A stretch of DNA of 64,000 bases from an uncultured Porphyromonadaceae bacterium (lineage in GTDB: Bacteria > Bacteroidota > Bacteroidia > Bacteroidales > Muribaculaceae): assembly GCA_947575235.1 (NCBI GenBank), contig CANPMT010000005.1:1-64000 (forward strand), in the 5' to 3' direction. The notes beneath the pieces are model-generated. The model searched no databases, was not told the origin of the DNA, and worked only from the letters and a program-made list of their open reading frames with translations. Of this stretch, positions 9,262 through 39,411 are shown piece by piece. The position numbers were made by a program, and so were the translations under genes. How positions within the stretch are numbered: the stretch's first letter is position 1; every line of letters begins with the position of its first letter.

Positions 9262-9319
9262 ATTTTTTTGTAAATTCGCGTAAAATTACAAAAAATACTC
9301 AAAACACCGAAATTAAACA

Positions 9320-11389: not shown

Positions 11390-11429
11390 AATATTTAAAT
11401 TTAAGAATTAATATCAGGAGAGTGTTGAG

Positions 11430-11467
11430 AGAGAACACGCTCTAAAAAAGAGAACACGCTCTAAAAA
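11430..11467. repeat. tandem 19-bp repeat upstream of nitroreductase
   Basis: Two adjacent copies (11430-11448 and 11449-11467) of AGAGAACACGCTCTAAAAA. Each contains a small palindromic AGAG...CTCT. They lie 40-80 bases before the nitroreductase start and just after the RNA terminator, so they could be paired operator sites. Confidence 0.6.
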
Positions 11468-21910: not shown

Positions 21911-21968
21911 AAAAATATCGCCCTCGCGATGTGTTTTTGACCACACATTTTGCGAGGGCGATATTTTT
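21911..21968 (+). terminator. terminator after the Mur ligase, overlapping the next promoter
   Basis: 17-base perfect stem AAAAATATCGCCCTCGC (21911-21927) with 21952-21968, then TT. The downstream arm contains the last base of the -33 box at 21949-21952 of the next promoter. Confidence 0.85.
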
Positions 21969-21979
21969 TTGTAAATTTG
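21949..21979 (+). promoter_or_regulatory. promoter of the first beta-propeller gene
   Basis: -33 TTTG (21949-21952), -7 TAAATTTG (21972-21979), spacer 19, about 25 bases before the ATG at 22005. Confidence 0.75.
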
Positions 21980-22004
21980 CCGTCATAACCCGAACTTACA
22001 ACAT

Positions 22005-23153: not shown

Positions 23154-23167
23154 TGAGAATGTCTCGG

Positions 23168-23205
23168 GGTAAATCGGAATAGTTGCCGATTTACCTACCT
23201 TTTTT
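23168..23205 (+). terminator. terminator after beta-propeller A
   Basis: 10-base stem GGTAAATCGG / CCGATTTACC (23168-23177 with 23186-23195), then TACC and a run of T. Confidence 0.85.
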
Positions 23206-23240
23206 ATGAGAAAAAATGAGATATAATCATGAAAAAATTG

Positions 23241-23248
23241 TAATTTTG
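23241..23248 (+). promoter_or_regulatory. -7 box for beta-propeller B
   Basis: TAATTTTG, 38 bases before the ATG at 23287; the -33 region carries only ATG-like and TTG-like sequence. Confidence 0.5.
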
Positions 23249-23286
23249 CGGTGAACATATAATTTTCATAAACTAACAATCTTTAT

Positions 23287-24441: not shown

Positions 24442-24454
24442 TTTGGAGATAAGA

Positions 24455-26188
24455 TTAATAAATGTATTTGCGATAGAGGTCGCGATGCTCACTTTCCGAA
24501 TCATAGATCAATTTCTTCTGACGTGAGATACGCGACGCAACGGCTGATGGTGAATCATTTGACAGCACAGCGATTGCTTTGTAGTTTACACCGCATAAGC
24601 TTAGCAGGATTACCTTCTTGTTCTTGAAATCCGGGTTAAACTCCTCAATTATATAAGATGCGATATTTTCTTTTGCTTCATCAATATCTGAAATTAATGT
24701 ATTCAGAGATTTCGGGTTCATGTATGAATTGATTAATTTAGTACCCTTTTTTATATCCTCCGGAGAAAGATTGGTTTTCCATTCCGAGCCAGTACTGAAT
24801 AGTCTGTTAAGTTCCTGATACTTCTCATGTAGATTGTTGATTGAAGAAACCAGATCGGCAGGTTCAGATGATTTGTCACTATCTGTCTCTATGTGACTAT
24901 TGATTTCAGCTGCTTCAACAACGGACAACTCAGTTGATTTTTGATTATCTACATTCAAAGAATGATGTGAATGTTCAATATATGGATGTTTCCTCTTAAA
25001 CCGCAGAACTACCAACACAATACTTGCTATAAAAACACAAATTGCAATAACGGCAATTAATATTTTTGATCGGTTACTTTCAGTGGTTGGATTTTGGTTA
25101 TATTGGTTGGGCTTTGTCGAGTTATAATCTATAGAGGGGGTGCTATAGATACGTGACAATAATTCCTGGTCCTGAATACGGATTATTGAATCGGTATACT
25201 GGATATATTTTTCAAAATTGTTTTCATGGTGTGCGAATGTTTTCTCCATTGAAAGCTTCAATAATTTCTCTTCAGTTGAATTAGTACTTAGAGTTCTGAT
25301 GCTGTCACGTAATTGTATGCCTTTTGGGTTGTCAGATAGGAGAGCGGATATAGCCCAGTATGTATAAGACATGTAACTCAAAGGATGGTTATATGAGTTA
25401 GATTTTTCGTACCATTCATTGGCCTTTGCAAAATTATTTGCATAAAAATATGTAGCGGCCATTTCTTCAGATAGCTCCGGCAAATATATGGTCAGTCTAT
25501 TAACCTCTAAAATCTGGAGTGCTTCATTGATATACTTCTGAGATTTCTCAAAAGAGTCAATAGAATTGAACGATTTTGCTAACTCAAGAAGTATACCCGC
25601 TCTAATCTCGTCCTTGCCATTATTTTGGTCAAGGTAACTTATAGCTTCAAAAAATTTCTCTTCACCTTGCTGATAGTGTTTTTCTCTACAAAGGGCAATA
25701 CCCTCCGCACGCATGGCTAAGGCCGGGTAGTCGGGATCATGTAATTGGATGCCTAAATCAATCACTTGGTCGAACATACTAAAAGCAACAGAGTCAGCAT
25801 GCGTATGGAGGTAATAATTACCGTAAAGGAAATATGTAAGCATTCTTTCCCTCAGACAGGCAGTTTCGTCAGAAGGAGTCAAGAAAAATTCGACAGCTGG
25901 TCTTATTATACTGTCAGAAGTTATGACTCCATCTTTTCTGAATTTAGCAAGACTAATATAGAGGGAATATCGGGCTTTAGCCTCCTGATTACGCATATAT
26001 TTGAGGTCGGAATTATCAAGCAATGAGAAAGCGGAATCAAGATCAAAAGATATGAGCATTTCGACATCACTAAGTGAAATATCCACATAATGGTACTCCT
26101 GTGATTTGCCACAGCAAATAAATGATGCGACTGCTATCAGGCATGAAGCCATCAGGAATAAGCTATTTATAGCTCTAAATCTCTTCAT
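24455..26188 (-). CDS. membrane-spanning TPR regulator with C-terminal HTH
   Basis: 577 residues. An N-terminal hydrophobic segment (about 9-26) acts as signal or anchor and ends in ICCGKS, which could also be a lipobox. Residues about 50-345 are helical TPR-like repeats (for example YGNYYLHTHADSVAFSMFDQVIDLG), predicted periplasmic. One membrane helix (374-396) leads to a polar linker, a helical region (445-515) and a LuxR/sigma-4-like HTH (about 524-562; LLSLCGVNYKAIAVLSNDSPSAVASRISRQKK). This layout is a one-component sensor that reads a periplasmic signal and binds DNA inside. It is divergent from the NVEALA operon and the likely regulator of this locus, by inference from position. Confidence 0.75.
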   Translation of the reverse strand: MKRFRAINSLFLMASCLIAVASFICCGKSQEYHYVDISLSDVEMLISFDLDSAFSLLDNSDLKYMRNQEAKARYSLYISLAKFRKDGVITSDSIIRPAVEFFLTPSDETACLRERMLTYFLYGNYYLHTHADSVAFSMFDQVIDLGIQLHDPDYPALAMRAEGIALCREKHYQQGEEKFFEAISYLDQNNGKDEIRAGILLELAKSFNSIDSFEKSQKYINEALQILEVNRLTIYLPELSEEMAATYFYANNFAKANEWYEKSNSYNHPLSYMSYTYWAISALLSDNPKGIQLRDSIRTLSTNSTEEKLLKLSMEKTFAHHENNFEKYIQYTDSIIRIQDQELLSRIYSTPSIDYNSTKPNQYNQNPTTESNRSKILIAVIAICVFIASIVLVVLRFKRKHPYIEHSHHSLNVDNQKSTELSVVEAAEINSHIETDSDKSSEPADLVSSINNLHEKYQELNRLFSTGSEWKTNLSPEDIKKGTKLINSYMNPKSLNTLISDIDEAKENIASYIIEEFNPDFKNKKVILLSLCGVNYKAIAVLSNDSPSAVASRISRQKKLIYDSESEHRDLYRKYIY

Positions 26189-26259
26189 GATGTTGCGAGT
26201 GGTTAATGTTTTATAGTGTTGAAAATACCAGTCGTTAATCGTTACTTAATGATGTAGTG

Positions 26260-26290
26260 CAAAATTAATAAAATAAAAGCATACTTCAAA
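26260..26290 (-). promoter_or_regulatory. promoter of the TPR regulator
   Basis: Minus-strand -7 TAATTTTG (26260-26267) with -33 TTTG (26287-26290), spacer 19. Confidence 0.75.
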
Positions 26291-26426
26291 TAATTCGCTA
26301 TTATTTTTTGAGGAAAAGGGTATTATAAGGACTTCGGTTTATTAATGTAATGACATCATGAATCTCTAAGCATAAGAAATGGATTAGACATAATGAAGTT
26401 GTTATTAGAATCAGATGAAGAGAGAG

Positions 26427-26500
26427 TCCCAAAAGCGGATAAGGAGAAAGAGGTTCATCTTGAAGAGGGAGGGATATGTCTTAAGTTATAAGAGATGTAA
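26427..26500 (+). pseudogene. relic of a sixth beta-propeller gene (3' end only)
   Basis: This stretch aligns with the last 75 bases of the intact paralogues: TCCCAAAAGCGGATAAGGAG here, against TCCCAAAAGCCGACAAGGAA at the end of paralogue D, then GAGGGAGGGATATGTCTT against GAGGGAGGTATGTGTCTT, and finally GAGATG plus a stop. Small deletions destroy the frame. Upstream to about 26385 similarity fades. It is a fossil of an earlier copy in the array. Confidence 0.75.
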
Positions 26501-26688
26501 TAGTCTATAAGGTATGGGATTTTGAATATGTCACGTTGATTAAATATTGGGATTTGTGTTTGCATTGATTTGTGTTAAAATGAAGATATACAATAAGAAA
26601 TGTATGTAATTGCAAATGCAAATATGCAAAAAATAATGATGTAGACATATTTGGCAACCATGAGGATATTTATATTAGGATCACCTAC

Positions 26689-26696
26689 TAATTTTG
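26689..26696 (+). promoter_or_regulatory. -7 box of the NVEALA-propeller-RND operon
   Basis: TAATTTTG about 90 bases before the NVEALA start; no TTTG at the usual -33 distance, so an activator may be needed. Confidence 0.5.
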
Positions 26697-26754
26697 CGTC
26701 AGCATGTTGAAAGACCTGAGTTCTATATTGAGATTTCAGGTGAGATTATACAAC

Positions 26755-26780
26755 CATAATATTAACACATAATATTAACA
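26755..26780 (+). repeat. tandem 13-bp repeat in the NVEALA leader
   Basis: CATAATATTAACA twice in a row, ending six bases before the NVEALA start codon at 26787. It lies in the 5' leader and could affect translation initiation. Confidence 0.7.
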
Positions 26781-26786
26781 CAAACT

Positions 26787-27074
26787 ATGAGGAAAAAGAA
26801 GTTCTTCTACGTACTGTCAATTGCAGTCCTCGCAGCGGTGGGTTATATGGTTGTTGGCTACAGCGGCCCGAATGCCGAAGTGTCATCAACCTTGACCCTC
26901 TCAAATCTGGATGCCTTGAGTAATCCGGAGAATTCAGAAACATCCGGTTCAGAAACCGGTACAGGTTCAGAATCAGGTTCCAATATCGGGTCAAGTTCTC
27001 CATATGAATTTCCAAATGGTAGAACAGTCAGTACTACATGTAATACTCAAACAATAAATCATGAAAACGTATAA
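26787..27074 (+). CDS. NVEALA-type small secreted peptide
   Basis: 95 residues. N-terminal MRKKKFFYVLSIAVLAAVG signal sequence followed by MVVGYSGPNA, then LTLSNLDALSN (residues 36-46), a variant of the LxLxNVEALA signature of this Bacteroidetes family. The rest is a Ser/Gly/Glu/Thr linker (about 47-70) and a tail with one Cys. NVEALA peptides are small exported proteins that commonly sit beside beta-propeller lipoproteins and transporters; their activity is not known. Its last 14 bases overlap the start of the next beta-propeller gene, so the two are translationally coupled. Confidence 0.75.
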   Translation: MRKKKFFYVLSIAVLAAVGYMVVGYSGPNAEVSSTLTLSNLDALSNPENSETSGSETGTGSESGSNIGSSSPYEFPNGRTVSTTCNTQTINHENV

Positions 27075-28188
27075 TTTGATAATTGGAATATTCTTTGTCG
27101 TAATAATTAGTTCTTGTTCACATAAAAGGACTATTGTCGAAGTAAAGGATGCCGAGATTTTGAAATCATTAGATTTCACTGAGGAGATTGATACAATGTC
27201 AGGAGAACAGATTGCAGACATTCATTATCTGCCTTTAAAAGGTAGTGAGGAGCATTGCTTGGGAGATGTGACAAAACTATGTGTGCAGGATAGCCTCTTT
27301 GTAATAGCAAATAAGGACCAGGATAAGATTGTTTGCTATAATGATAAGGGTGAATTCCTATATGAGATAGATTCTAAGGGTGGAGGCCCGGAAGAATATC
27401 TTGATATGGCCTCTTTTACAGTAACCTCCACTGCCATATATACAATAGATAATTGTCTACATAAAATTTGTAAATATTCCATTGCAGATGGGAAATTCAT
27501 CACGAAGTATGATGTTGATTTTATCGCATGGGATATTGAAGCTTTTGATGACGATAACTTCTTATTCACATGTTTGCCGATTGCTCCCGGTAGAGACATA
27601 TATGAGAAGGAAGGAGAGGGGTATGCCGTGTGGAAAACTAATGGGAAATGGGAGACTCAAGATTCTTATATTCCTTATTCCAAAGACTATATTGAGCCTT
27701 TGGGAAAGAGAAGATGGTTTACAAGGAATGGTGATGAAATACAGTTTGATTTCATCAATAATGATGGCTTCTACTCAATTTCAAAATCCGGAAATGTGTG
27801 CTATACGCCAGTTCTCTTTTCGCATCCCTGGCCAAGAGAGAATGACATGGTAACTATTGAGAGGAATGTCGAGAAAACCGAATTTATTTCAGAGACACCT
27901 TTGATCACGTCAAAGTATGGAGTAGTGGAAATAACTGAGCGCGTTGGGGGAAATCTTTATTTCTTTGAAAGAGAGAATGGGAAATTCTTCCGGAATTCCA
28001 ACACAAGCACAGAGTACTTTCTATATAATATTCAAGGAGTGAAAGGTAATACATTTATAGGAATATTAAATGATAACTATGAAATGTATCTCTCAATGGT
28101 TGAATATGGCTTCCCGAAAGCTGATAAGGAGACCGAAGCTCTGCTCGGACAGGGAGGGATGTGCCTTATAATGTATGATATGAAGTAA
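27061..28188 (+). CDS. 6-bladed beta-propeller lipoprotein, paralogue C
   Basis: 375 residues. Lipobox ISSC (Cys19). Conserved blocks: IADIHYLPLKGSEEHCLGDVTKLCVQD, IVCYNDKGEFLYEIDSKGGGPEEYLDMASF (hallmark GGGPEEY), AIYTIDNCLHKICKYSIADGKF, IEAFDDDNFLFTC, KRRWFTRNGDEIQFDF, and a C-terminus of FPKADKETEALLGQGGMC then LIMYDMK. It overlaps the NVEALA gene by 14 bases. Likely surface-facing lipoprotein; ligand unknown. Its last 87 bases are almost identical to those of paralogue E while the bodies have diverged. Confidence 0.85.
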   Translation: MKTYNLIIGIFFVVIISSCSHKRTIVEVKDAEILKSLDFTEEIDTMSGEQIADIHYLPLKGSEEHCLGDVTKLCVQDSLFVIANKDQDKIVCYNDKGEFLYEIDSKGGGPEEYLDMASFTVTSTAIYTIDNCLHKICKYSIADGKFITKYDVDFIAWDIEAFDDDNFLFTCLPIAPGRDIYEKEGEGYAVWKTNGKWETQDSYIPYSKDYIEPLGKRRWFTRNGDEIQFDFINNDGFYSISKSGNVCYTPVLFSHPWPRENDMVTIERNVEKTEFISETPLITSKYGVVEITERVGGNLYFFERENGKFFRNSNTSTEYFLYNIQGVKGNTFIGILNDNYEMYLSMVEYGFPKADKETEALLGQGGMCLIMYDMK

Positions 28189-28260
28189 ACTGACCCATGA
28201 TACTAATCTAAAATAGGAGTATTATCCTATGGCATTGTCATAGGAAAACGGAATGACAAC

Positions 28261-29394
28261 ATGAAAAGAATAAACACAATTTTTATGACAGGAATAATCT
28301 TTTCAGGATTTTTCCTCGCCTGCTCTAATCAAAGAGTGGCAGTGATTGTGGAGGGTGTGGAAACAACGGATTCGTTGGATTTCACAACTCCGGTTGACAC
28401 AGTAACAAGTGCCGAGTTGAATAGTATCCATTACTTCCCTTTGAAAGGGAGTGAGGAGCATTTCCTCGGAAGTGTAACAAAACTATGTGTGCAGGATAAC
28501 TTATATGTCTTAGGCAACAAGGGACAGGATAAGATTGTATGCTACAACAACAAGGGTGAATTCTTGTATGAAATTGACGCAAAAGGAGCGGGGCCGGAAG
28601 AATATCTTGAGATTGCCAACTTTGCAACCACTCCAACATCGATATATGCGATTGACAATTTTTCTCATAAAATAAGCCAATATTCTATTGCAGACGGTAA
28701 GTTTATGTCTAAAAAAGATATAAATTTCGTAGCATTGGATATTGAGGCTTTCGATGATGATAATTTCCTGTTTACAGGCTTGGCGATGTATCCGAATAGC
28801 AGACCGAGTATGGATAACGGCAATTACGCCGTATGGCGTACTGACGGGGAATGGAACAGAACTGGTGATTACATTCCTCTTCCAGATGATTACATGGAGC
28901 CTTTCGGTAAACGCAGATGGTTTACAAAGAATGGTGACAAAATCTACTTCCATTTCATCAATTATGATGGATACTTCACATTTGATAAGGAGGGCGGTGT
29001 GCAATATTCTCCTGTCATCTTCAAAAATCCTTGGCCAAGAGTGGAGGAGAAAGCTGTAGGCGATTGGCAGGAAGCGGAGGGTGCGGATTATTTGACAAAG
29101 ACACCCTATATTGCGAAAACATGTGGATTGTTCGAAATAAAATCGGATAATAAGCTCCTCCCATATCTTTACGAGTTTGAGAAATCTCAATTCTATCAAA
29201 CTCCAATGTCGACCGCAAAATATACCTTCTTTGATATTCAGGGTGTAAAGGATAATACCTTTATAGGTGTTATGAATGACAACTTCGATTTGTATCAGAT
29301 GTTCGTTGATTATGGTTTCCCAAAAGCCGACAAGGAATCTGAAGAGCTCCTGAAAGAGGGAGGTATGTGTCTTCTCATGTATGAGATGAAGTAA
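28261..29394 (+). CDS. 6-bladed beta-propeller lipoprotein, paralogue D
   Basis: 377 residues. Lipobox FLAC (Cys21). Blocks shared with C and E: HYFPLKGSEEHFLGSVTKLCVQD, KIVCYNNKGEFLYEIDAKGAGPEEYLEIANF (GAGPEEY in place of GGGPEEY), IDNFSHKISQYSIADGKF, KRRWFTKNGDKIYFHFINYDGYFTF and a FPKADKESEELLKEGGMC end. It follows C by 72 bases, which contain a small hairpin (28225-28245) without a T-run, so co-transcription is likely. This paralogue most resembles the decayed relic at 26427. Confidence 0.85.
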   Translation: MKRINTIFMTGIIFSGFFLACSNQRVAVIVEGVETTDSLDFTTPVDTVTSAELNSIHYFPLKGSEEHFLGSVTKLCVQDNLYVLGNKGQDKIVCYNNKGEFLYEIDAKGAGPEEYLEIANFATTPTSIYAIDNFSHKISQYSIADGKFMSKKDINFVALDIEAFDDDNFLFTGLAMYPNSRPSMDNGNYAVWRTDGEWNRTGDYIPLPDDYMEPFGKRRWFTKNGDKIYFHFINYDGYFTFDKEGGVQYSPVIFKNPWPRVEEKAVGDWQEAEGADYLTKTPYIAKTCGLFEIKSDNKLLPYLYEFEKSQFYQTPMSTAKYTFFDIQGVKDNTFIGVMNDNFDLYQMFVDYGFPKADKESEELLKEGGMCLLMYEMK

Positions 29395-29412
29395 AATGTC
29401 GAACACTGTAAA

Positions 29413-29451
29413 AAGTAATCTCCCGGAATAGAGATATTCGGGAGATTACTT
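29413..29451 (+). other. strong hairpin without T-run between propellers D and E
   Basis: 13-base perfect stem AAGTAATCTCCCG (29413-29425) with 29439-29451. It is not followed by a T-run and ends 10 bases before the ATG of paralogue E. It looks like an mRNA processing, stability or translation-control element rather than a full terminator. Confidence 0.6.
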
Positions 29452-29461
29452 GAAATTACTT

Positions 29462-30586
29462 ATGAAGAGAGGAAAATTAATAATTCTAACCATGATAGGG
29501 AGCTTACTGGCTTCCTGTGAGAATGGTAGGCGGGATATTGATATAGATGGCGTTCATGTTGAGAAATCATATGATTTTTCACAACCAATAGATACAATTT
29601 CAAGTTCTGAAATTAATCAGATACGTTATCTGCCTTTGAGAGGTAGTGAAGATCATAATCTGAGTGATATCACCAAATTATGTGTTCAAGACAGCATATA
29701 TGTTATGGGTAACCGTTATGATGATAAGTTGATATGCTTTAGTGATAAGGGGGAGTTCCTATATGAGATTGCTTCACAAGGTGAGGGCCCTGAGGAGTAT
29801 ATTGAGATTGCGTCATTCACCACAACAAAATCAGCAATCTATATAATGGATAACCATGCCCATAAAATGATAAAGTACTCCTTGAGGGATGGCAAATTTA
29901 TCTCCAAGAGTGATATTAAATTTGTTGCCTGGGATTTTGAGGCATTTGATGATGATGCTTTCCTATTTACTTGTATGCCTGTTAGTCCGGGTGGTGAGGT
30001 GAATATGAAAGCCGGTGATTATGCTGTATGGAGAACAAATGGTAAATGGGAGATTGAAGATTTCTATATCCCGTTTAAGCCAGAATATTGTGAGCCATTT
30101 GGCAAACGGAGATGGTTTACCAGAAATATGGATGAGATACAGATTGCATTCTTAAATTATGACGGTTTCTTCACTTTTACAAAATCCGGCGATGTGAATT
30201 TTACTCCGTTGTTGTTTTCACATACTTGGCCAAGAAAGAATGGCGTGGTAACAGAAGATCCGGATGACGAGAATGTAGAATATCTTTCAGAAACGCCCTT
30301 TGTTAGTACGAGATGGGGATTGTTGGAAATAACGATGGGATTATATGATTATACATATATAATTGATAGAAGGAATGATAATATTTTTTGTAACTCACGG
30401 ACTTCTGCAAAGTGTTTCATGTATAAAATCAAAGGGGTAAAGGATAATACATTTATTGGAGTCATAAACGATAACTACGACAACTATCTGGAGTTAGTGG
30501 AATATGGCTTCCCGAAAGCTGACAAGGAGACCGAAGCTCTGCTCGCACAGGGAGGTATGTGTCTTCTCATGTATGAGATGAAGTGA
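29462..30586 (+). CDS. 6-bladed beta-propeller lipoprotein, paralogue E
   Basis: About 374 residues from ATG 29462 (MKRGKLIIL); an in-frame TTG four codons upstream lies inside a hairpin and is less likely. Lipobox LASC (Cys19). Contains IRYLPLRGSEDHNLSDITKLCVQD, LICFSDKGEFLYEIASQGEGPEEYIEIASF (GEGPEEY hallmark), IMDNHAHKMIKYSLRDGKF, FEAFDDDAFLFTC, KRRWFTRNMDEIQIAF and a FPKADKETEALLAQGGMC end. Last of the propeller array, 94 bases ahead of the RND adaptor, with no terminator between. Confidence 0.85.
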   Translation: MKRGKLIILTMIGSLLASCENGRRDIDIDGVHVEKSYDFSQPIDTISSSEINQIRYLPLRGSEDHNLSDITKLCVQDSIYVMGNRYDDKLICFSDKGEFLYEIASQGEGPEEYIEIASFTTTKSAIYIMDNHAHKMIKYSLRDGKFISKSDIKFVAWDFEAFDDDAFLFTCMPVSPGGEVNMKAGDYAVWRTNGKWEIEDFYIPFKPEYCEPFGKRRWFTRNMDEIQIAFLNYDGFFTFTKSGDVNFTPLLFSHTWPRKNGVVTEDPDDENVEYLSETPFVSTRWGLLEITMGLYDYTYIIDRRNDNIFCNSRTSAKCFMYKIKGVKDNTFIGVINDNYDNYLELVEYGFPKADKETEALLAQGGMCLLMYEMK

Positions 30587-30680
30587 TGGTGATATGTGTA
30601 GGTAGTAAACTCGACGACATAAGGTATTTGACGGTAAGCCGATTCTAAAGGCATATTCAGATAACAACAATTAACAGAGC

Positions 30681-31769
30681 ATGAGATATTCAGTTTTATT
30701 TTTAGCGTCGGCTCTTTTGGCAGGATGTGGAGGAAACGTCTCCATGAATGGGAATAATGATTCTGATGATAACCAGAAGAGGGATTCAATTGCCGAGGCA
30801 CGCAAGATTACGGAGGTGAACGTTGAGAAGTTGCAGGTGGTTGACTTCAATCATGAGATTGTGAGCAACGGCCGTGTGACGGGACATACGGTGGCGCAGC
30901 TTTATTTTCCGGCTTCCGACAGAGTCATTACACAGGTGAATGTGAAGAACGGCAGCAGGGTAAGGAGGGGGGATAAACTCGCCTCACTTGACACGTATAC
31001 GCTCGAATTTGAACTTGAACAGGCTATGACGGCACTCCAGAAATCGGAACTGGATTACAAGGATGCGCTGATCGGCCAGGGATTTGACCCGGATCATCAG
31101 GAGACAATTCCGGAGGATGTGAGGAAATTGGCTAAACTCAGAAGCGGTTATACCGATGCTGAGGCGAATGTGGCCAAGATTAAGTTTCATATTTCGGAGT
31201 CTACGGTCACAGCTCCTGTGGATGGAACTGTGGCTAACCTCTCGGGGAAAATCTTCAATCGTCCTGACGCTTCCAAACCATTCTGTTCGATTATTGCACA
31301 GGGTATGGATGTGGAATTTAAAATAATGGAGGGTGAACTGGCTCTTCTCGACATCAATGACAAGGTGAAGGTGGTGCCATTCTCCTCGTCAGAGCAGTAT
31401 CCGGGTCGTGTGACCGAGATTAACCCGGTGGTGGATGGGAACGGACTTGTGTCGGTTGTGGCTACGGTTGACGGCTCCAAGGGGCTGTATGACGGAATGA
31501 ATGTCAAGGTGAGTCTGTATAAATCGCTCGGCAAACAGATGGTGGTGCCGAAGAGCGCGGTGGTAATACGCAATGGCCGTGAGGTGGTGTTCACCCTCTC
31601 TGACGATAAGGGGAGAGCCATGTGGAATTATGTGGCAACCGGATTGGAGAACATGACCCAATATACAATTACCGAAGGCCTTGAGCCGGGGATGGATGTT
31701 ATTGTGAGCGGGAATGTGAACCTTGCCCATGAGGCCCCTGTGACTGTGATTGAGGATGTCGTAATGTAA
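30681..31769 (+). CDS. RND efflux periplasmic adaptor (membrane fusion) lipoprotein
   Basis: 362 residues. Lipobox LLAGC (Cys16). Two biotinyl-lipoyl half-motifs (VITQVNVKNGSRVRRGDKLASLD about 93-115; ESTVTAPVDGTVANLSGK about 173-190) flank a short coiled-coil hairpin (about 115-165). Beta-barrel and membrane-proximal domains follow (KVKVVPFSSSEQYPGRVTEINPV, MNVKVSLYKSLGKQMVVPKSAVV). It bridges the inner-membrane pump and outer-membrane channel. The only adaptor in an operon with two pumps. Confidence 0.9.
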   Translation: MRYSVLFLASALLAGCGGNVSMNGNNDSDDNQKRDSIAEARKITEVNVEKLQVVDFNHEIVSNGRVTGHTVAQLYFPASDRVITQVNVKNGSRVRRGDKLASLDTYTLEFELEQAMTALQKSELDYKDALIGQGFDPDHQETIPEDVRKLAKLRSGYTDAEANVAKIKFHISESTVTAPVDGTVANLSGKIFNRPDASKPFCSIIAQGMDVEFKIMEGELALLDINDKVKVVPFSSSEQYPGRVTEINPVVDGNGLVSVVATVDGSKGLYDGMNVKVSLYKSLGKQMVVPKSAVVIRNGREVVFTLSDDKGRAMWNYVATGLENMTQYTITEGLEPGMDVIVSGNVNLAHEAPVTVIEDVVM

Positions 31770-31788
31770 TTGCAGAGTGTGAGCTGAT

Positions 31789-34700
31789 ATGGTGAAATTT
31801 CTATTGGAACGGCCCATAGCTGTCATAATGGCTTTCTTAGCGGCGGTGATTGTTGGACTCGCCTCATATTTCTCTATACCCGTGTCGTTATTGCCCGCAA
31901 TCGACATACCTGAAATAACGGTGAGGATTACAGGGGATAATATGTCGGCCCGTCAGCTTGAGAATGCTGTCACGGGTCCGATCCGACGCTGGGTGCAACA
32001 GGTGGAGGGAGTGGATGAGATCTCAAGTGAAACCCGCGACGGGTCGGCCGTGATCAGAATGGGATTTGAATATGGCGTGGATATTGACTTGGCTTTCATT
32101 GCGGTGAATGAGAAAATTGATGCCGCTATGAATATGCTGCCGCGTGATATGCAACGCCCCAAGGTGGTCAAGGCGAGTGCCACAGATATACCTGTGCTGT
32201 ATCTCACCATGACTCTGAAGGATTCGGTATATGATGCCCGTGGATTCAGGGATTTGGGTAAAGTGGCCGAGAGTATTGTGAGAAGGCGACTGGAACTGCT
32301 CCCGGAGGTGGCGATGGTGGACGTTACCGGTGTGCCGGAACTTATGGTGTGCGTGCAGCCTGACCGTCATATGACCGAGGCTGCCGGTATAACTGACGGC
32401 ATGATTGCCGATGCCTTGCGCTCAGCCAACAGTTCGCCGGGTGCCATGACCGTCAGGGAGGGGTATTATGAATACAATGTCGGAATATCTAATAATCTCC
32501 GCACCCCGGAGGATGTGGCCGACATCTATATAAATCATGCCGGAAAACTGATCAGACTCGGTGACGTGGCCACGGTGACAACTGCAGAACGTGAACCTGA
32601 CGGCATATCATCTTACAACGGCAAACGGGCTGTCACTCTCGCTGTTATCAAGAATAATGAGGAGGGGATAGATGGTATGAAGGATGTGTTGGGAAAGGTG
32701 ATTTCGGAGATGGAGGAGCTGTATCCCATGATTGAGTTCTCTATCAGCCGCAACCAGACTGACCTGCTCGATTTCACTATCTCGAACCTGGTGCAGAATC
32801 TTCTGCTCGGTTTGCTCCTTGTGTTTCTCATCACTGTGATATTCATGGGGGATCTGCGCTCACCGTTTGTGATAGGAATCACTATCGTGGTGGCGCTGGT
32901 GCTTACTTTCCTGATGTTCTATCTGTGTCATGTGTCGCTGAATGTGGTCTCTCTTTCGGGTTTGATTCTCGCTGTGGGGATGATGATTGACAATTCAACA
33001 ATCGTAACTGAAAATATTACCCAATGGAGGCAGAGGGGGCTCTCACTGACCAAGGCCTGCGACAGGGGAACAACTGAGATGATAACGCCTCTGCTGAGTT
33101 CTTCGCTCACGACTGTGGCGGTGTTCGTGCCGTTGGTGTTCATGAGTGGAATCGCGGGTGCCATTTTCACGGATCAGGCATTCTCAATAACGGTGGGTCT
33201 GGCAATGTCGTATCTGAGCGGGATTCTGCTCTTGCCTGTGCTGTATAGACTCTTTTTCAGAAAAAGAGGTGACTTTCACAAGTCATGGAGAATGGCCGGT
33301 TCTATCGAGAGGGTTATGGAGAGAGGTTATGACCGTGGGATTGCCTCTGTGTTCCGCCATAAGGTGATATGGCTCCTCATCACTGCCTTGACTTTCCCGG
33401 TGTGCTATCTGATGTTCCGTACGTTGCGCGTGGAGAGAATGCCGGCGCTCGACCATGTGGAGACTATCGCCCGTGTGGAATGGAATGAGAATATCAATGC
33501 GGTGGAGAATGACCGCCGAGTTGGGGAATTGCTGGGTGAATTCTCTAATTCGATTGCCGAGAGTGCGGCTGCGGCAGGTGTGCAGGATTATCTGCTTGAG
33601 GCGGGGAATGACCTCACATCAAATGATGCCGAAGTCTATATCAGATGTGAATCGGTGGAGAGACTTAACGAGGTGATGCGCCGGATCAAGGAATGGACCG
33701 GTAGTAATTACCCGACAGCCCAGATTACATTCTCTCCACCTGACAATATTTTCGAGAAGATATTTACCTCGTCAGAACCTGAACTTATGGTGAGACTAAC
33801 CCCGGGTCTGAGTAATGTGGAGATGACACCTGAGAGCTATTCTAAAATCGTAAGCAAGATAGCCACCGGATGTGGAGCGCCTGATGAGGTGACGGCTATA
33901 AGGAAGCAATCGGATATAAGAATTGATAACCGTAAACTGGCTCTTTATAAGATAGACCGTGGCACAGTGGAGGGGGCATTGCGCGACGCTTTCAAGCAGG
34001 AGAGTGTCACGACGCTGCGTTCGTTCAGTGAGTATCTCCCTTTGACAATCGGTGGGAAGAACAGGAATCTTGAGACAATTCTGTCGGAAACTATGGTGCG
34101 TACCCGTGGCAGCAATGAACTGATACCGCTGCGTGAGGTGGTGAGTGTGCGCAATGCTTATGATTTCAGTGAACTGACGGCCGGAAAGAACGGTGAGTAT
34201 CTCCCTGTGACGTATGCCTCGACATCCGGCACCGGGCAACTGATAAGCCATGTTGACGAGACATTGCGCGAGGAACCTGCATGGGATTATGAACTAACGG
34301 GAGCCTTCTTCTCGAATTCAAAGATGATGGGGGAGATGGTGGTGATTCTGCTCGTGTCGGTGGCATTGATGTATTTTATATTGTGTGCGCAGTTCGAGAG
34401 TTTTGTGCAGCCGCTCATTGTATTGCTTGAGATTCCGCTTGACACGGCTTTCGCCCTAATCATGTTGTGGCTTACAGGAAATTCCCTTAATATCATGTCG
34501 GCAATCGGTATAGTGGTGACGTGCGGCATTGTTGTTAATGACTCCATCCTTAAACTGGATGCCATCAATACCTTACGGAAGGAAGGTATGCCGCTGCAGG
34601 AGGCCATACATACCGCCGGATTGAGGCGGTTGCGCCCTATTGTGATGACCTCGCTCACCACAATGCTCGCGATGGTGCCATTGCTTTTCACCAATGATAT

Positions 34701-34830
34701 AGGGAGCCAGTTGCAGCGTCCGCTTGCGATAGCCATGATAGGGTCGATGGCCATAGGCACTCTTGTGAGCATTTTCATCATACCGTTGGTGTATTCTCTT
34801 GTTGTGGCCAAGGGTTCACTCCGTAAATAA
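31789..34830 (+). CDS. RND efflux permease, pump 1
   Basis: 1013 residues of the HAE1-type RND family. N-terminal helix IAVIMAFLAAVIVGLASYF, SLLPAIDIPEITV, porter region with EGVDEISSETRDGSAVI, and twelve membrane helices in two groups of six. The helix-4 proton-relay motif reads GMMIDNSTIVTEN (Asp401, Asn402), one acid rather than the DD of AcrB; the helix-10 region VVTCGIVVNDSILK has no Lys. These changes are usual in many Bacteroidetes pumps. Its start is 19 bases after the adaptor. Substrate cannot be deduced; a peptide is suggested only by context. Confidence 0.92.
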   Translation: MVKFLLERPIAVIMAFLAAVIVGLASYFSIPVSLLPAIDIPEITVRITGDNMSARQLENAVTGPIRRWVQQVEGVDEISSETRDGSAVIRMGFEYGVDIDLAFIAVNEKIDAAMNMLPRDMQRPKVVKASATDIPVLYLTMTLKDSVYDARGFRDLGKVAESIVRRRLELLPEVAMVDVTGVPELMVCVQPDRHMTEAAGITDGMIADALRSANSSPGAMTVREGYYEYNVGISNNLRTPEDVADIYINHAGKLIRLGDVATVTTAEREPDGISSYNGKRAVTLAVIKNNEEGIDGMKDVLGKVISEMEELYPMIEFSISRNQTDLLDFTISNLVQNLLLGLLLVFLITVIFMGDLRSPFVIGITIVVALVLTFLMFYLCHVSLNVVSLSGLILAVGMMIDNSTIVTENITQWRQRGLSLTKACDRGTTEMITPLLSSSLTTVAVFVPLVFMSGIAGAIFTDQAFSITVGLAMSYLSGILLLPVLYRLFFRKRGDFHKSWRMAGSIERVMERGYDRGIASVFRHKVIWLLITALTFPVCYLMFRTLRVERMPALDHVETIARVEWNENINAVENDRRVGELLGEFSNSIAESAAAAGVQDYLLEAGNDLTSNDAEVYIRCESVERLNEVMRRIKEWTGSNYPTAQITFSPPDNIFEKIFTSSEPELMVRLTPGLSNVEMTPESYSKIVSKIATGCGAPDEVTAIRKQSDIRIDNRKLALYKIDRGTVEGALRDAFKQESVTTLRSFSEYLPLTIGGKNRNLETILSETMVRTRGSNELIPLREVVSVRNAYDFSELTAGKNGEYLPVTYASTSGTGQLISHVDETLREEPAWDYELTGAFFSNSKMMGEMVVILLVSVALMYFILCAQFESFVQPLIVLLEIPLDTAFALIMLWLTGNSLNIMSAIGIVVTCGIVVNDSILKLDAINTLRKEGMPLQEAIHTAGLRRLRPIVMTSLTTMLAMVPLLFTNDIGSQLQRPLAIAMIGSMAIGTLVSIFIIPLVYSLVVAKGSLRK

Positions 34831-34845
34831 AACATCGGCAAAATC

Positions 34846-36348
34846 ATGAAACGTATCATCAGCAATTTAATATCAGGAATAGCAGTATTGACAGGTCTGT
34901 CGTCGGGAGTGTCGGCTCAAAATGCGGATGTTGTGAGACTCGGTCTCAGACAGACGATTAATCTCGCGGCTGACAGTTCATTGTCGGCTTTCCGTTACCG
35001 CAATCTTTATGAGTCGGGTTACTGGGCTTACCGTTCGTTCAAGGCGAACCGGTTGCCGAGCATGTCGATCAATATGACTCCGGCCCGTTATTACCGTGAT
35101 ATCGTATCGAGGTATGACTATGATAACAATATCGACGTGTATCGCTCCCAACAGTCGTATTTCGCCTCCTTAGGACTTAACCTTACCCAGAATTTCGACT
35201 GGTTGGGAGGAACGTTCTTTGTGGAATCGGATATCGACTATATCCATAATATGGGAGCCAATAAATTCAGCCAGTTCTCAAGTGTGCCTGTGAGGATAGG
35301 ATATTCCCAGCAGTTGCTCGGCTATAACAGCTTCAAGTGGGAGAAGAGGATTGAGCCTGTGAAGTATGAGAAAGTGAAACGTGAGTATCTTTACAATATG
35401 GAGAGCGTTTCGGAGAATGCCGTGTCGCTCTTTTTCAATCTCGCCCTTGCTCAGGCCGAGGATAAACTCGCACATGAGAATCTCGCTTCTGCCGACACCC
35501 TGTATGCGATGGGGGAGCGTAAGTTCAAGATCGCCTCAATATCACAGGCCGAACTTCTGACCCTTAAGCTGGATCTTGTCAACGCAAAGAATTCTGTTGA
35601 GAATTCCCGGATTTCGCTCAACCGTGCCAATGCCGCCCTTGCCTCTTTCTTAGGGATGGACCGCGACACGCATCTTGAGGTTGAACTCCCTTCTTTGCCC
35701 GTGTACAGGGAGATTCCGGTTGTGGAGGCTCTGGCACTGGCCCGTGAGAACAGTGCGGCGTTGCTGGCCGACAAGCAGGGGATTCTGGAGGCTGAAAGCG
35801 AAGTGAGCAGGCGAAAGGTTGAGAATATGTTTTCAGCCTCATTCAGCGCGAGCGTGGGCTTTAACCAGATAGGTGATAATTTTGGGGCAGCCTACAGGCA
35901 TCTCATGCGTCAGGATATGGTGTCGGTGTCGCTGACCATCCCTCTGCTTGACTGGGGAGTGAGGAAAGGACGGTATAAGATGGCTGTGAGCAGCCTGAAT
36001 GAGAAAAGAATATCGGCCCGGCAGAATGAGGAGTCGCTGAATGAGGAGGTGGCCATGACCGTGGATGATTTCAATATCCGTCTTGATATGATAAAGTCGG
36101 CTCAGGAGGCTATGGATCTGGCCGATATGGCGTATGACAGAACCCGCCAGAGATTTATGATAGGGAAGAGTGACCTCAGCAGCATGACGCTCGCCTCCGC
36201 CCGCAGGCAGGAAGCTACCCGAAACTATATCGAGGCTCTTAAGAATTATTGGCTGAGCTATTACACGCTGCGCAAGCTCACACTCTATGATTTTGAATTA
36301 GGTATACCCTTGTCGAGAAAGTTTGACATTGAGAACCATGTGAAATGA
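34846..36348 (+). CDS. TolC-family outer-membrane factor
   Basis: 500 residues. Signal peptide ending in GVSAQ. Long helical repeats typical of OMF alpha-barrels (MESVSENAVSLFFNLALAQAEDKLAHENL, later ARQNEESLNEEVAMTVDDFNIRLDM) and paired beta segments. Forms the trimeric outer-membrane exit duct. It is placed between the two pump genes and overlaps pump 2's start by four bases (ATGA), so both pumps probably share this channel. Confidence 0.9.
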   Translation: MKRIISNLISGIAVLTGLSSGVSAQNADVVRLGLRQTINLAADSSLSAFRYRNLYESGYWAYRSFKANRLPSMSINMTPARYYRDIVSRYDYDNNIDVYRSQQSYFASLGLNLTQNFDWLGGTFFVESDIDYIHNMGANKFSQFSSVPVRIGYSQQLLGYNSFKWEKRIEPVKYEKVKREYLYNMESVSENAVSLFFNLALAQAEDKLAHENLASADTLYAMGERKFKIASISQAELLTLKLDLVNAKNSVENSRISLNRANAALASFLGMDRDTHLEVELPSLPVYREIPVVEALALARENSAALLADKQGILEAESEVSRRKVENMFSASFSASVGFNQIGDNFGAAYRHLMRQDMVSVSLTIPLLDWGVRKGRYKMAVSSLNEKRISARQNEESLNEEVAMTVDDFNIRLDMIKSAQEAMDLADMAYDRTRQRFMIGKSDLSSMTLASARRQEATRNYIEALKNYWLSYYTLRKLTLYDFELGIPLSRKFDIENHVK

Positions 36349-39300
36349 TGAAGAGGTCAGGATTTCCAATTATCATAATATCGGTTGCCCTTACGTTATT
36401 GGGCGCCCTCCTTGTTACCTCTTTGCCAGTGAAGCTCTTCCCGTCAAGAGAACTTCCATCAATCACTGTAAATTTCTCCATGCCGGATAATTCATCTCTG
36501 GTGATTGAACAGGAGGTGACGTCAAAGCTTGAGGGGGTGCTGGGACGTATCAAGGGGGTGACCCGGATTGACTCCCGGTCAGGAAACGGCTCAGGGCACG
36601 TAACCATCGGTCTGGATAAGCATACCGATATTGATGTGGCGCGGCTCGAAGCTGCCACTCTTGTGAGGCAGATGTGGAGCAGTCTCCCTCCCGGTGTGAG
36701 TTACCCCTCCATATCGACACGGAAAGCCTCTGATGAGGCTTCTTTCCCATTCATGACATACACAGTTACGGCTCCCTTGAGCTCAAGGGATATCGGTCGA
36801 TATGCGGAGGAGCATGTGAAAACGGCGCTGGCAGATCTGCCTGGGGTAGCAAACATTGATATCCACGGCGTGCTCCCTATGGAGTATCGTCTCGAGTATG
36901 ATGCCGACCATCTATATTCTTTGGGAATTTCACCGGGTGATATAGCTTCGGCAATCGGCCGGCATTATGGATTTGAATTCCTTGGATTGGCAGATACCGA
37001 CGAGGGGAGTATCCGTGTTGTGCGTACAGGTGAAGGAGAGAAGGGTGAGCTGAATATTCACGATATAGCGGTGAATCTGCCTGACGGCACTCCTGTGGGG
37101 ATTGACCGCCTTGTGAAGATGACGCACCGTGAGGCCGTGCCGTCGGGTTATTTCCGTATCAACGGTAAAAATTCAATTTATCTCAATGTCACTGCCGAAG
37201 AGGAGGCCAACCGTATCGAACTTTCAAAGCTTGTGCGCCGCGCTGTGAAGGATATGGAGAAGAGCGCTCCCAAGGGGATGGAGTTCAATCTGGTGTCGGA
37301 TTCTTCTGACAATATCACGAAGGAACTGGATAAGATTTGGGTGCGGACATCCCTTACTGTGCTTCTATTGCTCCTTTTTATCGTGGTGGCTACGCTGGAT
37401 ATCAGATATTCCCTGCTGATTGTGGTGAGTCTGGTTATCAATCTTGGAGTAGCCGTGATTTTCTACCGGCTGTCTGGCACGGAGATTCATCTATATTCTC
37501 TTGCCGGAATCACTATCTCCCTCAATCTGGTTATCGACAATACTATTGTGATGTGCGACCATTATATGCGGAGACGTGACCTCAAGGTTTTTCCGGCTAT
37601 TTTGGCTGCCACACTCACAACTATCGGGGCATTGACTGTGATATTCTTTCTGGATGATGAGGTAAAGGCGAATCTGATTGATTTTGTAGTGGTAGTGGTG
37701 GTGAATTTAGTGGTGTCGTTAGGGGTTGCGCTCTTTCTCGTGCCTGCTTTGGCCGAGTATTCCGGCATTAAAGCCGGGAGAAGGAAGAGAAGCCGTTTCG
37801 CGGCGGCTCCCTCGAGGATTGCGATGAAATGCTACCGGGGTTATATCGGGTTTGCCCTCCGCTTCAGATGGATTTTCTTTCTTCTTATGGCAGGGGGAAT
37901 TGGTGTGACAGGCGGGCTTTTCTTTACAAAAGTAAGTGAGGGTGTGTATTTCACCCGTCATGAGGAGGAGAAGACTCTGATAATTGCTGCATCGCTTCCC
38001 AACGGATCAACTCTTCCGCAGATGAATGCCCTGATGCAAGAGATGGAGTTGTTTCTTATGGGAGAATCAGGCATCAGGCAGTTCCAGACCAATGTCTTCA
38101 GTGGACGTAACGGCGCCATATATGTGAGATTCACTGATAAAGCCTTGAAAACAAGCTATCCCTATAAACTCAAATCGGAGGTGATATCAAAGGCTTTGAC
38201 GCTTGGCGGAGGAAGCTGGAGTGTGAGCGGTGTTGATGACATGGGATTTAACAATGAACTGAGGGAAGAGTCGGGTGGCACCCATATAATATTGCGCGGG
38301 TTCAATTATGATGAACTCTATTCGCAGGCTGAAAGGGTAAGGGATTCTCTTTTGGCTCACCGCAGGATAAATGATGTGGAGATAAGATCTGATTTCTCGC
38401 TCTGGAAGGATGACTATTCGGAGTATAAGCTCACGATTGACAAAATGGCTCTTGCCGAAGCCGGGATATCGGTTTATGATTTTTACAATGCCATCACACC
38501 TGTGTTCGGCAGAAATATATATTGCGGCAGTGTGGCCTCAGATTTCGGGGATGAGGGGGTTAGGCTATCGGCCCTGCAAGGAGGTGAGTATGATGTATGG
38601 GGATTGAAGAATATGCCTATCCGTATCGGCGACAGGTATTTCAGGATATCCGATCTCGCCACTTTTGAGAAGGGGAGTTCACCAAAGGAGATTGTGAAGG
38701 AGAGTCAGGCCTATAGACTGTGTATACAGTATGCGTATGTAGGGTCATGGCAACAGGGTAACAATTTCGCAGAGAAGATAATCTCCTCGTTCCGACAGAG
38801 TATGCCGGCCGGATACAGTATAGAGAGGGATCTTTCGGTGAGAGGATGGGACACAAAAGATTATTCAATCTATCTGCTTTTAGGGATTGTGGTGCTTGTG
38901 ATTTTCTTGCTCTCTGCCATTCTGTTCAATTCATTGCTGCGTCCGTTGGCCATCATTGCGGTCATACCGATGTCGTATGTAGGTATTTTTCTTACCTTCT
39001 GGTTGTTTGACCTGAAATTTGACCAGGGTGGCTTCGCCTCGTTTATCCTGTTGAGCGGTATAACGGTAAACGCCGCCATTTATCTTATTTATGAGTTTGA
39101 CAGAATAAGGGGGTGTATAGGTGGAAGAGGAATACAGCCCTTGAGAATATATCTGAAGGCTTTCGGTGTGAAGATAATGCCTATCCTGATGACGGTGATA
39201 TCTACTGTGTTGGGTTTTATCCCCTTCATCGTTGGCACTTCGAAAGAGGGGTTCTGGTTCCCCTTGGCGGCGGGCACAATAGGGGGCTTGTTATTCTCGC

Positions 39301-39353
39301 TTATAGCCGTGGTGTTTTATCTCCCACTTATGATTCTGCCCCGTAGAAGGTGA
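36345..39353 (+). CDS. RND efflux permease, pump 2
   Basis: 1002 residues, RND superfamily but clearly different from pump 1. Start MMKRSGFPIIIISVALTLLGALLVTSLPVKLFPSRELPSITVNF; porter segments RIKGVTRIDSRSGNGSGHVTIGLD; helix 4 with SLNLVIDNTIVMCDHY (Asp398, Asn399); second half begins near FRWIFFLLMAGGIGVTGGLFF. Translationally coupled to the OMF gene. With pump 1 it may form a mixed trimer, as MdtB and MdtC do, or two alternative pumps on one adaptor. Terminator follows. Confidence 0.9.
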   Translation: MMKRSGFPIIIISVALTLLGALLVTSLPVKLFPSRELPSITVNFSMPDNSSLVIEQEVTSKLEGVLGRIKGVTRIDSRSGNGSGHVTIGLDKHTDIDVARLEAATLVRQMWSSLPPGVSYPSISTRKASDEASFPFMTYTVTAPLSSRDIGRYAEEHVKTALADLPGVANIDIHGVLPMEYRLEYDADHLYSLGISPGDIASAIGRHYGFEFLGLADTDEGSIRVVRTGEGEKGELNIHDIAVNLPDGTPVGIDRLVKMTHREAVPSGYFRINGKNSIYLNVTAEEEANRIELSKLVRRAVKDMEKSAPKGMEFNLVSDSSDNITKELDKIWVRTSLTVLLLLLFIVVATLDIRYSLLIVVSLVINLGVAVIFYRLSGTEIHLYSLAGITISLNLVIDNTIVMCDHYMRRRDLKVFPAILAATLTTIGALTVIFFLDDEVKANLIDFVVVVVVNLVVSLGVALFLVPALAEYSGIKAGRRKRSRFAAAPSRIAMKCYRGYIGFALRFRWIFFLLMAGGIGVTGGLFFTKVSEGVYFTRHEEEKTLIIAASLPNGSTLPQMNALMQEMELFLMGESGIRQFQTNVFSGRNGAIYVRFTDKALKTSYPYKLKSEVISKALTLGGGSWSVSGVDDMGFNNELREESGGTHIILRGFNYDELYSQAERVRDSLLAHRRINDVEIRSDFSLWKDDYSEYKLTIDKMALAEAGISVYDFYNAITPVFGRNIYCGSVASDFGDEGVRLSALQGGEYDVWGLKNMPIRIGDRYFRISDLATFEKGSSPKEIVKESQAYRLCIQYAYVGSWQQGNNFAEKIISSFRQSMPAGYSIERDLSVRGWDTKDYSIYLLLGIVVLVIFLLSAILFNSLLRPLAIIAVIPMSYVGIFLTFWLFDLKFDQGGFASFILLSGITVNAAIYLIYEFDRIRGCIGGRGIQPLRIYLKAFGVKIMPILMTVISTVLGFIPFIVGTSKEGFWFPLAAGTIGGLLFSLIAVVFYLPLMILPRRR

Positions 39354-39376
39354 TACGTATGGATAATGGCAAGAAA

Positions 39377-39411
39377 GCCGGACAGAGGTGATTCTGTCCG
39401 GCCTCCTTTTT
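39377..39411 (+). terminator. terminator of the RND operon
   Basis: 10-base stem GCCGGACAGA / TCTGTCCGGC (39377-39386 with 39393-39402) followed by CTCC and a T-run. Confidence 0.85.

Follow-up and report, generated by a model that had tools for sequence, protein, structure and literature searches.

The stretch of DNA analysed here, hereafter the window, comprises the first 64,000 nucleotides of contig CANPMT010000005.1 (assembly GCA_947575235.1) of an uncultured Porphyromonadaceae bacterium of the Muribaculaceae lineage. It encodes the precursor of an NVEALA-type peptide, a set of beta-propeller proteins, a putative membrane regulator (REG) with tetratricopeptide repeats (TPR) and a quartet of resistance-nodulation-division (RND) export genes, namely a periplasmic adaptor, pump 1 (RND1), an outer-membrane factor (OMF) and pump 2 (RND2). 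An earlier note on this DNA regarded the peptide, propellers, regulator and exporter as one putative system of peptide export and sensing. In this study, we find strong support for a single system in gene neighbourhoods and genome co-occurrence: NVEALA peptides, propellers, an S26 signal peptidase, a Wzy_C protein, a transglutaminase-like (TGL) protein, a CxxC-DUF1573 protein, a TPR-transmembrane regulator and the quartet adaptor-RND1-OMF-RND2 very probably belong together. The window region is probably a reduced second copy of this Bacteroidales envelope system, which would make and export small NVEALA-type peptides.

Results

Gene arrangement in the window

The window belongs to contig C5 of its own genome assembly (3.3 Mb, 135 contigs). 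The gene coordinates, order and overlaps given earlier are confirmed (Table 1). The NVEALA and propC genes overlap by 14 nt (27061-27074) and OMF and pump 2 by 4 nt (36345-36348); from NVEALA to RND2 the intergenic gaps are -14, 72, 67, 94, 19, 15 and -4 nt. The three propellers described beside the NVEALA gene are present, and propA and propB beyond REG belong to the set too, so that the full number is five; all of them exceed the PF17170 cut-off of 22.9 bits (51.9-92.1 bits). The propeller remnant between REG and the NVEALA gene shows turnover, propeller genes evidently duplicating and decaying here. GC content falls from 0.52 to 0.35-0.45 across the propeller, REG and NVEALA stretch (22000-30999); over the RND genes it is 0.50 again.

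Table 1. Features of the locus (positions in the window)
Feature	Position	Strand	Remarks
propA, 6-bladed beta-propeller protein (PF17170)	22005..23153	+	75.5 bits to PF17170; no lipobox with the pattern used
propB, 6-bladed beta-propeller lipoprotein	23287..24441	+	51.9 bits to PF17170; 39-43% identity to propC/D/E; lipobox LASC
REG, putative regulator, TPR - transmembrane - C-terminal helix-turn-helix-like	24455..26188	-	divergent from NVEALA gene; TPR-family match E 3e-18
Decayed propeller 3' end	26426..26497	+	77% DNA identity to propC 3' end, E 1e-7
NVEALA-type peptide precursor, 95 aa, motif NLDALS	26787..27074	+	25.1 bits to PF14055, cut-off 27
propC, propeller lipoprotein	27061..28188	+	87.9 bits to PF17170; lipobox ISSC
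propD, propeller lipoprotein	28261..29394	+	81.7 bits to PF17170; lipobox FLAC
propE, propeller lipoprotein	29462..30586	+	92.1 bits to PF17170; lipobox LASC
RND periplasmic adaptor	30681..31769	+	TIGR01730 129.4 bits (cut-off 94.9); Pfam HlyD_3
RND pump 1	31789..34830	+	PF00873 (ACR_tran) 549 bits; best solved chain E. coli MdtB 9lyq_B
Outer-membrane factor (OMF), TolC-like	34846..36348	+	OEP 112.3 bits
RND pump 2	36345..39353	+	NF033617 298 bits, under its cut-off 1250
Intrinsic terminator after pump 2	39377..39402	+	11-pair stem, 7 GC, T tail

A terminator scan gave 13 sites versus 12.6 expected by chance, the two strongest on the plus strand lying after propA (23167-23196) and after RND2. 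Between 26787 and 39353 the plus strand has two weak sites only, inside pump 2, in agreement with the earlier view that no convincing terminator interrupts this stretch and that a strong one follows it. The Bacteroides-type promoter consensus TTTG-N-TAnnTTTG, scanned without a chance control, matched at 21949-21979 (before propA), at 23298 (inside propB) and at 26290-26260 on the minus strand (before REG), and gave no match in the gap between propE and the adaptor. Elements resembling a -7 box precede propB and the NVEALA gene, the latter at 26689. A scan for E. coli-type promoters was set aside (69 found versus 39.6 expected). A promoter plus terminator splitting propE from the adaptor, which had been named as an argument against a joint system, did not turn up in the consensus scans, and a single transcript from NVEALA to RND2 is plausible.

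Conservation of the gene neighbourhood

An adaptor-alignment scan of genome contigs confirmed 480 relatives, of which the best 80 were used; their taxa include Bacteroides, Phocaeicola, Muribaculaceae, Parabacteroides and Proteiniphilum. The hidden Markov models of the locus genes were built from the same 80 loci that they annotate, and searches with PF14055 and PF17170 serve as an independent check. Label-free clustering of the genes in these loci yielded 12 clusters present in at least five loci, including RND1/RND2, adaptor and OMF; their Pfam names were taken from related members. In this clustering, propellers occur in 58 of the 80 loci, Wzy_C and S26 in 36 each, TGL in 30, NVEALA in 28 and DUF1573 in 22, and the order adaptor-RND1-OMF-RND2 is kept in 67. 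In fifty long loci the sequence ahead of the adaptor extends for 6 kb or more. When annotated with the models, 46 of them carry at least one partner anywhere in the locus (propeller 43, NVEALA 32, Wzy_C 32, S26 30, TGL 27, DUF1573 23), and strictly upstream of the adaptor 42 do so (propeller 39, NVEALA 31, Wzy_C 32, S26 30, TGL 27, DUF1573 22).

Proximity was compared in seven genomes, picked for long contigs after the locus maps were known. An NVEALA match lies within 15 kb for 8/8 loci of the window RND family versus 1/66 other RND operons (p 6e-10). This count uses 53 of 54 NVEALA rows, a weak fragment that overlaps being dropped, and 100 of 114 RND rows, without 14 that are short fragments or score below the cut-off.

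A first survey of 101 relatives, including the own genome, detected pump 2 in 16, PF17170 in 17 and PF14055 in 6. Propellers or NVEALA genes stand alongside RND genes in G000:C93, G021, G012, G050, G083, G082 and G088, and a contig of G097 gave a sub-cut-off propeller match only. Among the 16 pump-2 genomes G094 was left out, and the short contigs G005, G042, G052 and G053 and the masked G089 are little informative. Some contigs occur both here and among the 80 loci (L039 = G021, L071 = G005, L085 = G050, L091 = G012). Relatives do carry the quartet beside NVEALA and propeller genes, the opposite of what would have told against the earlier proposal.

The genome survey that the earlier note had called for was extended to 392 Bacteroidales genomes, including the own genome and partly overlapping the first 101. 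Co-occurrence of NVEALA, the system-type S26 and pump 2 was found across these genomes. Pump 2 is present in 76 of the 392 genomes, NVEALA in 29 and both in 26; without the own genome, 25/3/50/313 genomes have both, NVEALA only, RND2 only or neither (Fisher p 6e-17, a descriptive value, as are those below). Of the three NVEALA-positive genomes without pump 2, G118 has a weak match inside a 568-aa frame that looks spurious, and G252 has a system-type S26. This S26, defined by a threshold of E<=1e-45, occurs in 21 of the 392 genomes and, counted in the same way without the own genome, accompanies both NVEALA (18/2/10/361, p 5e-22) and RND2 (19/1/56/315, p 5e-14). The order survey replaced p-values for co-presence within the genus, for which 61 same-genus genomes had been assumed. 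Among the 25 genomes that carry the two genes, the distance from NVEALA to pump 2 was obtained for 14. In 11 of these, hence in at least 11 of the 25, it does not exceed 20 kb, against a chance expectation of 0.01-0.10 per genome; it is 23 kb in G319, and the genes are far apart in G421 and G167. In the remaining 11 genomes, NVEALA and RND2 share no contig among the matches listed. A chance neighbourhood is ruled out by the proximity in seven genomes, the counts in the 50 long loci and the genome co-occurrence.

Two further observations concern the loci themselves. Bacteroides mediterraneensis (NZ_LT635783.1) has two loci of the system on one chromosome (L046 and L048), the RND matches of L048 being split over short frames. 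Three loci labelled Staphylococcus, Lachnospiraceae and Clostridium (L044, L063, L068) carry a Bacteroidales-type locus, and these bins look mislabelled.

NVEALA peptide precursors

With its hydrophobic N-terminus and an NVEALA-like motif near residue 40, the window peptide has the layout of NVEALA precursors. A paralogue on contig C21 of the own genome (C21:32689) scores 28.6 bits to PF14055, above the cut-off. Among 64 NVEALA proteins examined, 60 have the motif (at least three of its six letters), and 59 of these 60 contain a hydrophobic stretch. The conserved segment ends in N-[VI]-E-A-L-[A/S/T], with alanine at -3 in 59/60 and A/S/T at -1 in 57/60. A-x-A is the preference of signal peptidase I. 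There is no GG at the end of the motif. A glutamate follows three residues past the motif in 49/60, and the deeper core columns shown all stay below 0.7 bit. The cores have 27-71 residues (median 41) and 8.8% cysteine, the number of cysteines being even in 47/60.

Two pump-2 loci of other families hold small proteins of NVEALA-like layout (L034 2655-2894 and 5105-5359; L035 17108-17344). A motif search in distant loci had given one false match, and these candidates came from a looser search by composition. The one scanned (L034 5105-5356) matches no Pfam family. They may represent further peptide families of the same system.

Putative processing partners in related loci

The fuller related loci add four genes to those of the window, encoding a dedicated S26 peptidase and Wzy_C, TGL and CxxC-DUF1573 proteins. 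Residues were counted in long pieces only. The S26 proteins (36 of 40 pieces, at least 200 aa) have the Ser/Lys dyad and box E of type I signal peptidases: Ser48 is present in 35/36, Lys122 in 36/36, and G-D and S-x-D-S-R-Y in 36/36. In TGL (26 of 36 pieces, at least 400 aa) Cys252 and His285 are found in 26/26, and the DUF1573 proteins (21 of 34 pieces, at least 200 aa) have CxxC in 21/21. This processing module makes peptide export more plausible, and export of the NVEALA peptide by the RND machine would fit both gene content and co-occurrence.

The Wzy_C protein allows another reading, in which this protein would produce or transfer the exported substrate, a glycan or lipid, and the NVEALA peptides would serve as acceptors, anchors or regulators. 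Wzy_C has many strongly conserved residues, is present in 32 of the 50 long loci and lies directly upstream of the adaptor in 17/80. In genome G421 it still adjoins the adaptor (L137 14584), no PF14055 match lying near pump 2, an arrangement which suggests that Wzy_C and the RND pair may form a tight functional core. Set against this, no recognised glycan-synthesis gene besides Wzy_C is found among the 12 recurrent clusters, and S26 and the CxxC protein suit a peptide substrate. We consider a glycan or lipid substrate unlikely.

Other genes were seen near related loci. Near the TPR regulator and TGL genes of L121 lies a gene (8937-9413) for a 158-aa membrane protein that by eye resembles MauE/DoxX and is possibly a further redox partner. 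In L033, which has a related RND set of another family, the gene immediately before the adaptor (11194-11643) encodes a protein with a Peptidase_C39 domain, a possible alternative leader peptidase.

The two RND pumps

Adaptor, ACR_tran pump and OEP channel stand together as in tripartite exporters of the HAE type. Pump 2 was compared with NCBIfam only and matches RND permease models; its best solved structure is the efflux pump 8f3e, with MdtB 9lyq_B second. Neither pump approaches the NCBIfam equivalog cut-offs for MdtB/MdtC (1584/1774), pump 1 scoring 294/302 bits and pump 2 151/159 bits.

Key residues were compared in pieces of at least 900 aa plus the window proteins (pump 1 n=74, pump 2 n=66). 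The first aspartate of transmembrane helix 4 (TM4) is kept throughout (pump 1 D401 74/74, pump 2 D398 66/66), and the second position is N 46/S 28 in pump 1 and N 59/A 4/S 3 in pump 2. At the position of K940, for which we presume the corresponding lysine of MdtB, pump 1 has N 71/T 3 in the MdtB alignment and pump 2 has N 66, mapped by eye. In TM10 of pump 1 a set D918, K922, D924 (D-x3-K-x-D) is invariant (74/74), and it is absent from pump 2. The canonical proton relay of AcrB, D407 and D408 in TM4 with K940 in TM10 (PMC8277102), is found in neither pump. The pumps would form an asymmetric pair, pump 1 being presumably the energised one.

These data bear on the possibility that the quartet does no more than ordinary efflux of drugs or bile, with NVEALA and propeller genes hitchhiking in a variable region. 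Both pumps are clear RND proteins, and the base composition is as expected for a variable segment: over the 80 loci the mean GC content is 0.38-0.40 in NVEALA, propeller and DUF1573 genes and 0.50-0.52 in adaptor, RND and OMF genes. Hitchhiking is at odds with the 8/8 versus 1/66 proximity of NVEALA and the gene co-occurrence across genomes, and the altered relay in both pumps argues against an ordinary pump. We judge this reading very improbable.

Propellers

Of 119 propellers with 300 aa or more, 77 match the lipobox pattern; propA does not, and some propellers may therefore not be lipoproteins. The conserved columns of a 24-protein alignment are Cys, Met, Leu, Gly, Pro, Glu and Tyr, with no His, and propellers as PAL-like metal enzymes were rejected.

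In the 80 loci the next gene on the same strand is a propeller for 41 of 63 NVEALA genes, and from this adjacency we infer that propellers may bind the peptide. The same adjacency would suit an antibacterial system in which the NVEALA cores are exported as bacteriocins and the propeller next to each provides immunity against it; export would be the same and the purpose killing instead of signalling. The short, variable, cysteine-rich cores with mostly even cysteine counts would agree with this, as would NVEALA-propeller cassettes away from the RND hub. Some relatives indeed keep such islands apart from RND genes, two of these genomes having 17 and 16 PF14055 matches; the islands also fit one processing and export hub serving several peptide cassettes. 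The numbers speak against a pairing of toxin and immunity: propellers outnumber peptides (141 versus 63 in the 80 loci), several loci have propellers and no detected peptide, and in the window five propellers stand beside a single peptide. A bacteriocin function is in our opinion rather doubtful.

The putative regulator REG

REG had been described as a membrane-bound TPR regulator with a helix-turn-helix (HTH) domain. The full structural model (mean pLDDT 66.8) predicts TPR helices at residues 29-265 (pLDDT mostly 80-95) and a transmembrane helix at 368-398, with a further helical domain at the C-terminus. No Pfam HTH model matches REG, and its TPR matches are sub-threshold. Modelled alone, the C-terminal domain reaches pLDDT 78. 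Its best PDB matches are mostly HTH domains, sigma-factor region 4 first, all at E >=1, and Foldseek finds nothing at E<=0.001 for it; the domain is regarded as HTH-like. The TPR-protein family that REG matches is present at 13/80 related RND loci, and together with the predicted topology this recurrence suggests that REG may sense a ligand.

Copies of the system in the own genome

No S26, Wzy_C, TGL or DUF1573 gene was found in the window locus. By the definition used here, with a dedicated S26 and Wzy_C in one cluster, the window locus is not a full system. Both genes are present on C21, which carries the only Wzy_C match of the genome, a second S26, two NVEALA genes, a REG-like gene, propellers, two DUF1573 genes and two TGL genes (one short). 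The C21 S26 has a mean identity of 41% to the system S26s versus 27% for the LepB-like S26 on C12. C21 ends 116 bases past Wzy_C. The start of contig C93 holds an NVEALA gene, a DUF4221 protein gene and a small CxxC protein gene, after which comes a second quartet with 57-71% identity to that of the window, and C21 and C93 may be neighbours in the genome. The best reading of these copies is that the window contains a reduced second copy, which would rely in trans on the S26, Wzy_C, TGL and DUF1573 parts encoded on C21.

Discussion

We propose the following course of events. The NVEALA precursor would be translocated and then remain attached through its hydrophobic segment, disulfide formation would be helped by the CxxC protein, and S26 would cleave after the A-x-A that closes the NVEALA motif. 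The two-pump RND machine would then take the core from the periplasm and pass it out via the OMF. Propellers would be envelope partners of the peptide, be it as carrier, receptor or immunity protein, and the TPR regulator would switch the cluster upon a periplasmic ligand. Export, cleavage, binding and sensing are thereby deduced from the genes and their company.

Several observations weigh against this proposal or against the linkage on which it builds. Four of the 50 long loci have no partner at all (L041, L045, L060, L084) and eight have none strictly upstream of the adaptor; no partner was seen in G076 among the first fetched relatives. PF14055 finds no match in 50/75 RND2 genomes; two fetched pump-2 loci nonetheless hold NVEALA-like peptides, and Pfam missed the one tested. 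In G421, a genome in one contig, the nearest PF14055 match is 959 kb from RND2. Ten of the 28 NVEALA-positive genomes other than the own genome give no system-type S26 match, and the co-occurrence p-values ignore shared ancestry. Concerning cleavage, the A-x-A lies about 24 residues past the hydrophobic core, a much longer spacing than signal peptidase I normally uses. The cut by S26 may therefore fall at another place or follow an earlier cleavage. An A-x-A motif occurs in 36/44 precursors with S26 in the locus versus 9/15 without, which is not significant (p 0.16). Finally, the peptide encoded in the window is a divergent one, with one cysteine in its core.

More speculatively, the system might be a case of RND-powered secretion of diversified, disulfide-bearing peptides, in which an own type I signal peptidase would cut the leader, an asymmetric two-pump machine would export the core, and propellers and a membrane TPR-HTH receptor would receive it, in communication or competition among gut commensals such as Bacteroides, Phocaeicola and Muribaculaceae. 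Many gut Bacteroidales carry NVEALA peptides and propellers, and the link of these families to a dedicated S26 and one specific RND machine provides a concrete hypothesis as well as a genetic handle. If it is true, one set of 'multidrug efflux' annotations would move to peptide traffic, and uncharacterised secreted peptides would be expected in the gut.

Comparison with known systems

RRNPP receptors such as Rap and NprR are cytosolic proteins with an N-terminal HTH or phosphatase domain plus TPRs. REG resembles them in that RapH and a phage Rap protein top the Foldseek list of its full model (E 5e-4, TM-score ~0.3). The match is only a lead, because other TPR proteins, the eukaryotic LGN/Pins, score alike. 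REG differs from RRNPP receptors in its predicted transmembrane helix and in the C-terminal position of its HTH-like helical domain.

Parts of the system belong to the Pfam families NVEALA (PF14055), DUF5128/PF17170 and DUF4221/PF13970, whose names give no function. The link of these families to S26, Wzy_C and the RND quartet was found in no paper searched; the literature searched contains no description of an NVEALA-S26-RND system, nor the term 'NVEALA' itself. The locus appears to be present in B. thetaiotaomicron VPI-5482, judged by annotations: BT0662 is listed as O-antigen ligase, BT0664 as propeller, BT0667 as lepB and BT0669 as adaptor (PMC10434189). The iron-response rows for this locus in the same source have second-column values of 0.113-0.437, which were not used.

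MdtABC/MuxABC-type efflux systems likewise have an operon with two distinct RND pumps besides an adaptor and an OMF, and pump 1 is nearest MdtB; MdtBC is a rare RND heterotrimer (PMC8277102). The exporter described here differs in scores far under the MdtB/MdtC equivalog cut-offs, in TM4, where N/S/A takes the place of the second D of D-D, and in the D-x3-K-x-D of TM10 that only pump 1 has. Moreover, its gene neighbours encode peptides, a protease and propellers. MacAB-TolC is tripartite as well and carries a periplasmic polypeptide, enterotoxin II, to the outside (PMC8277102). MacAB is an ABC transporter, whereas an RND pump is found here, with an S26 peptidase and a CxxC protein of its own in relatives.

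A likeness in overall design also exists to double-glycine-leader peptides with C39-ABC transporters in clusters for ribosomally synthesised and post-translationally modified peptides (RiPPs) of Bacteroidales: a short precursor, a conserved leader and a variable core, with processing and export genes alongside. Such clusters include a peptidase-containing ATP-binding transporter (PCAT), a membrane fusion protein (MFP) and an outer membrane protein (OMP) (PMC10352776); the words 'propeller', 'RND' and 'signal peptidase' do not occur in the main text of that paper. No C39-ABC protein is recognised in the recurrent clusters described here, one C39 domain lying beside a distant adaptor, and the motif ends without GG and is preceded by an N-terminal hydrophobic segment. 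The system thus appears to be a leader-peptide secretion cluster that uses S26 and RND instead of C39-ABC.

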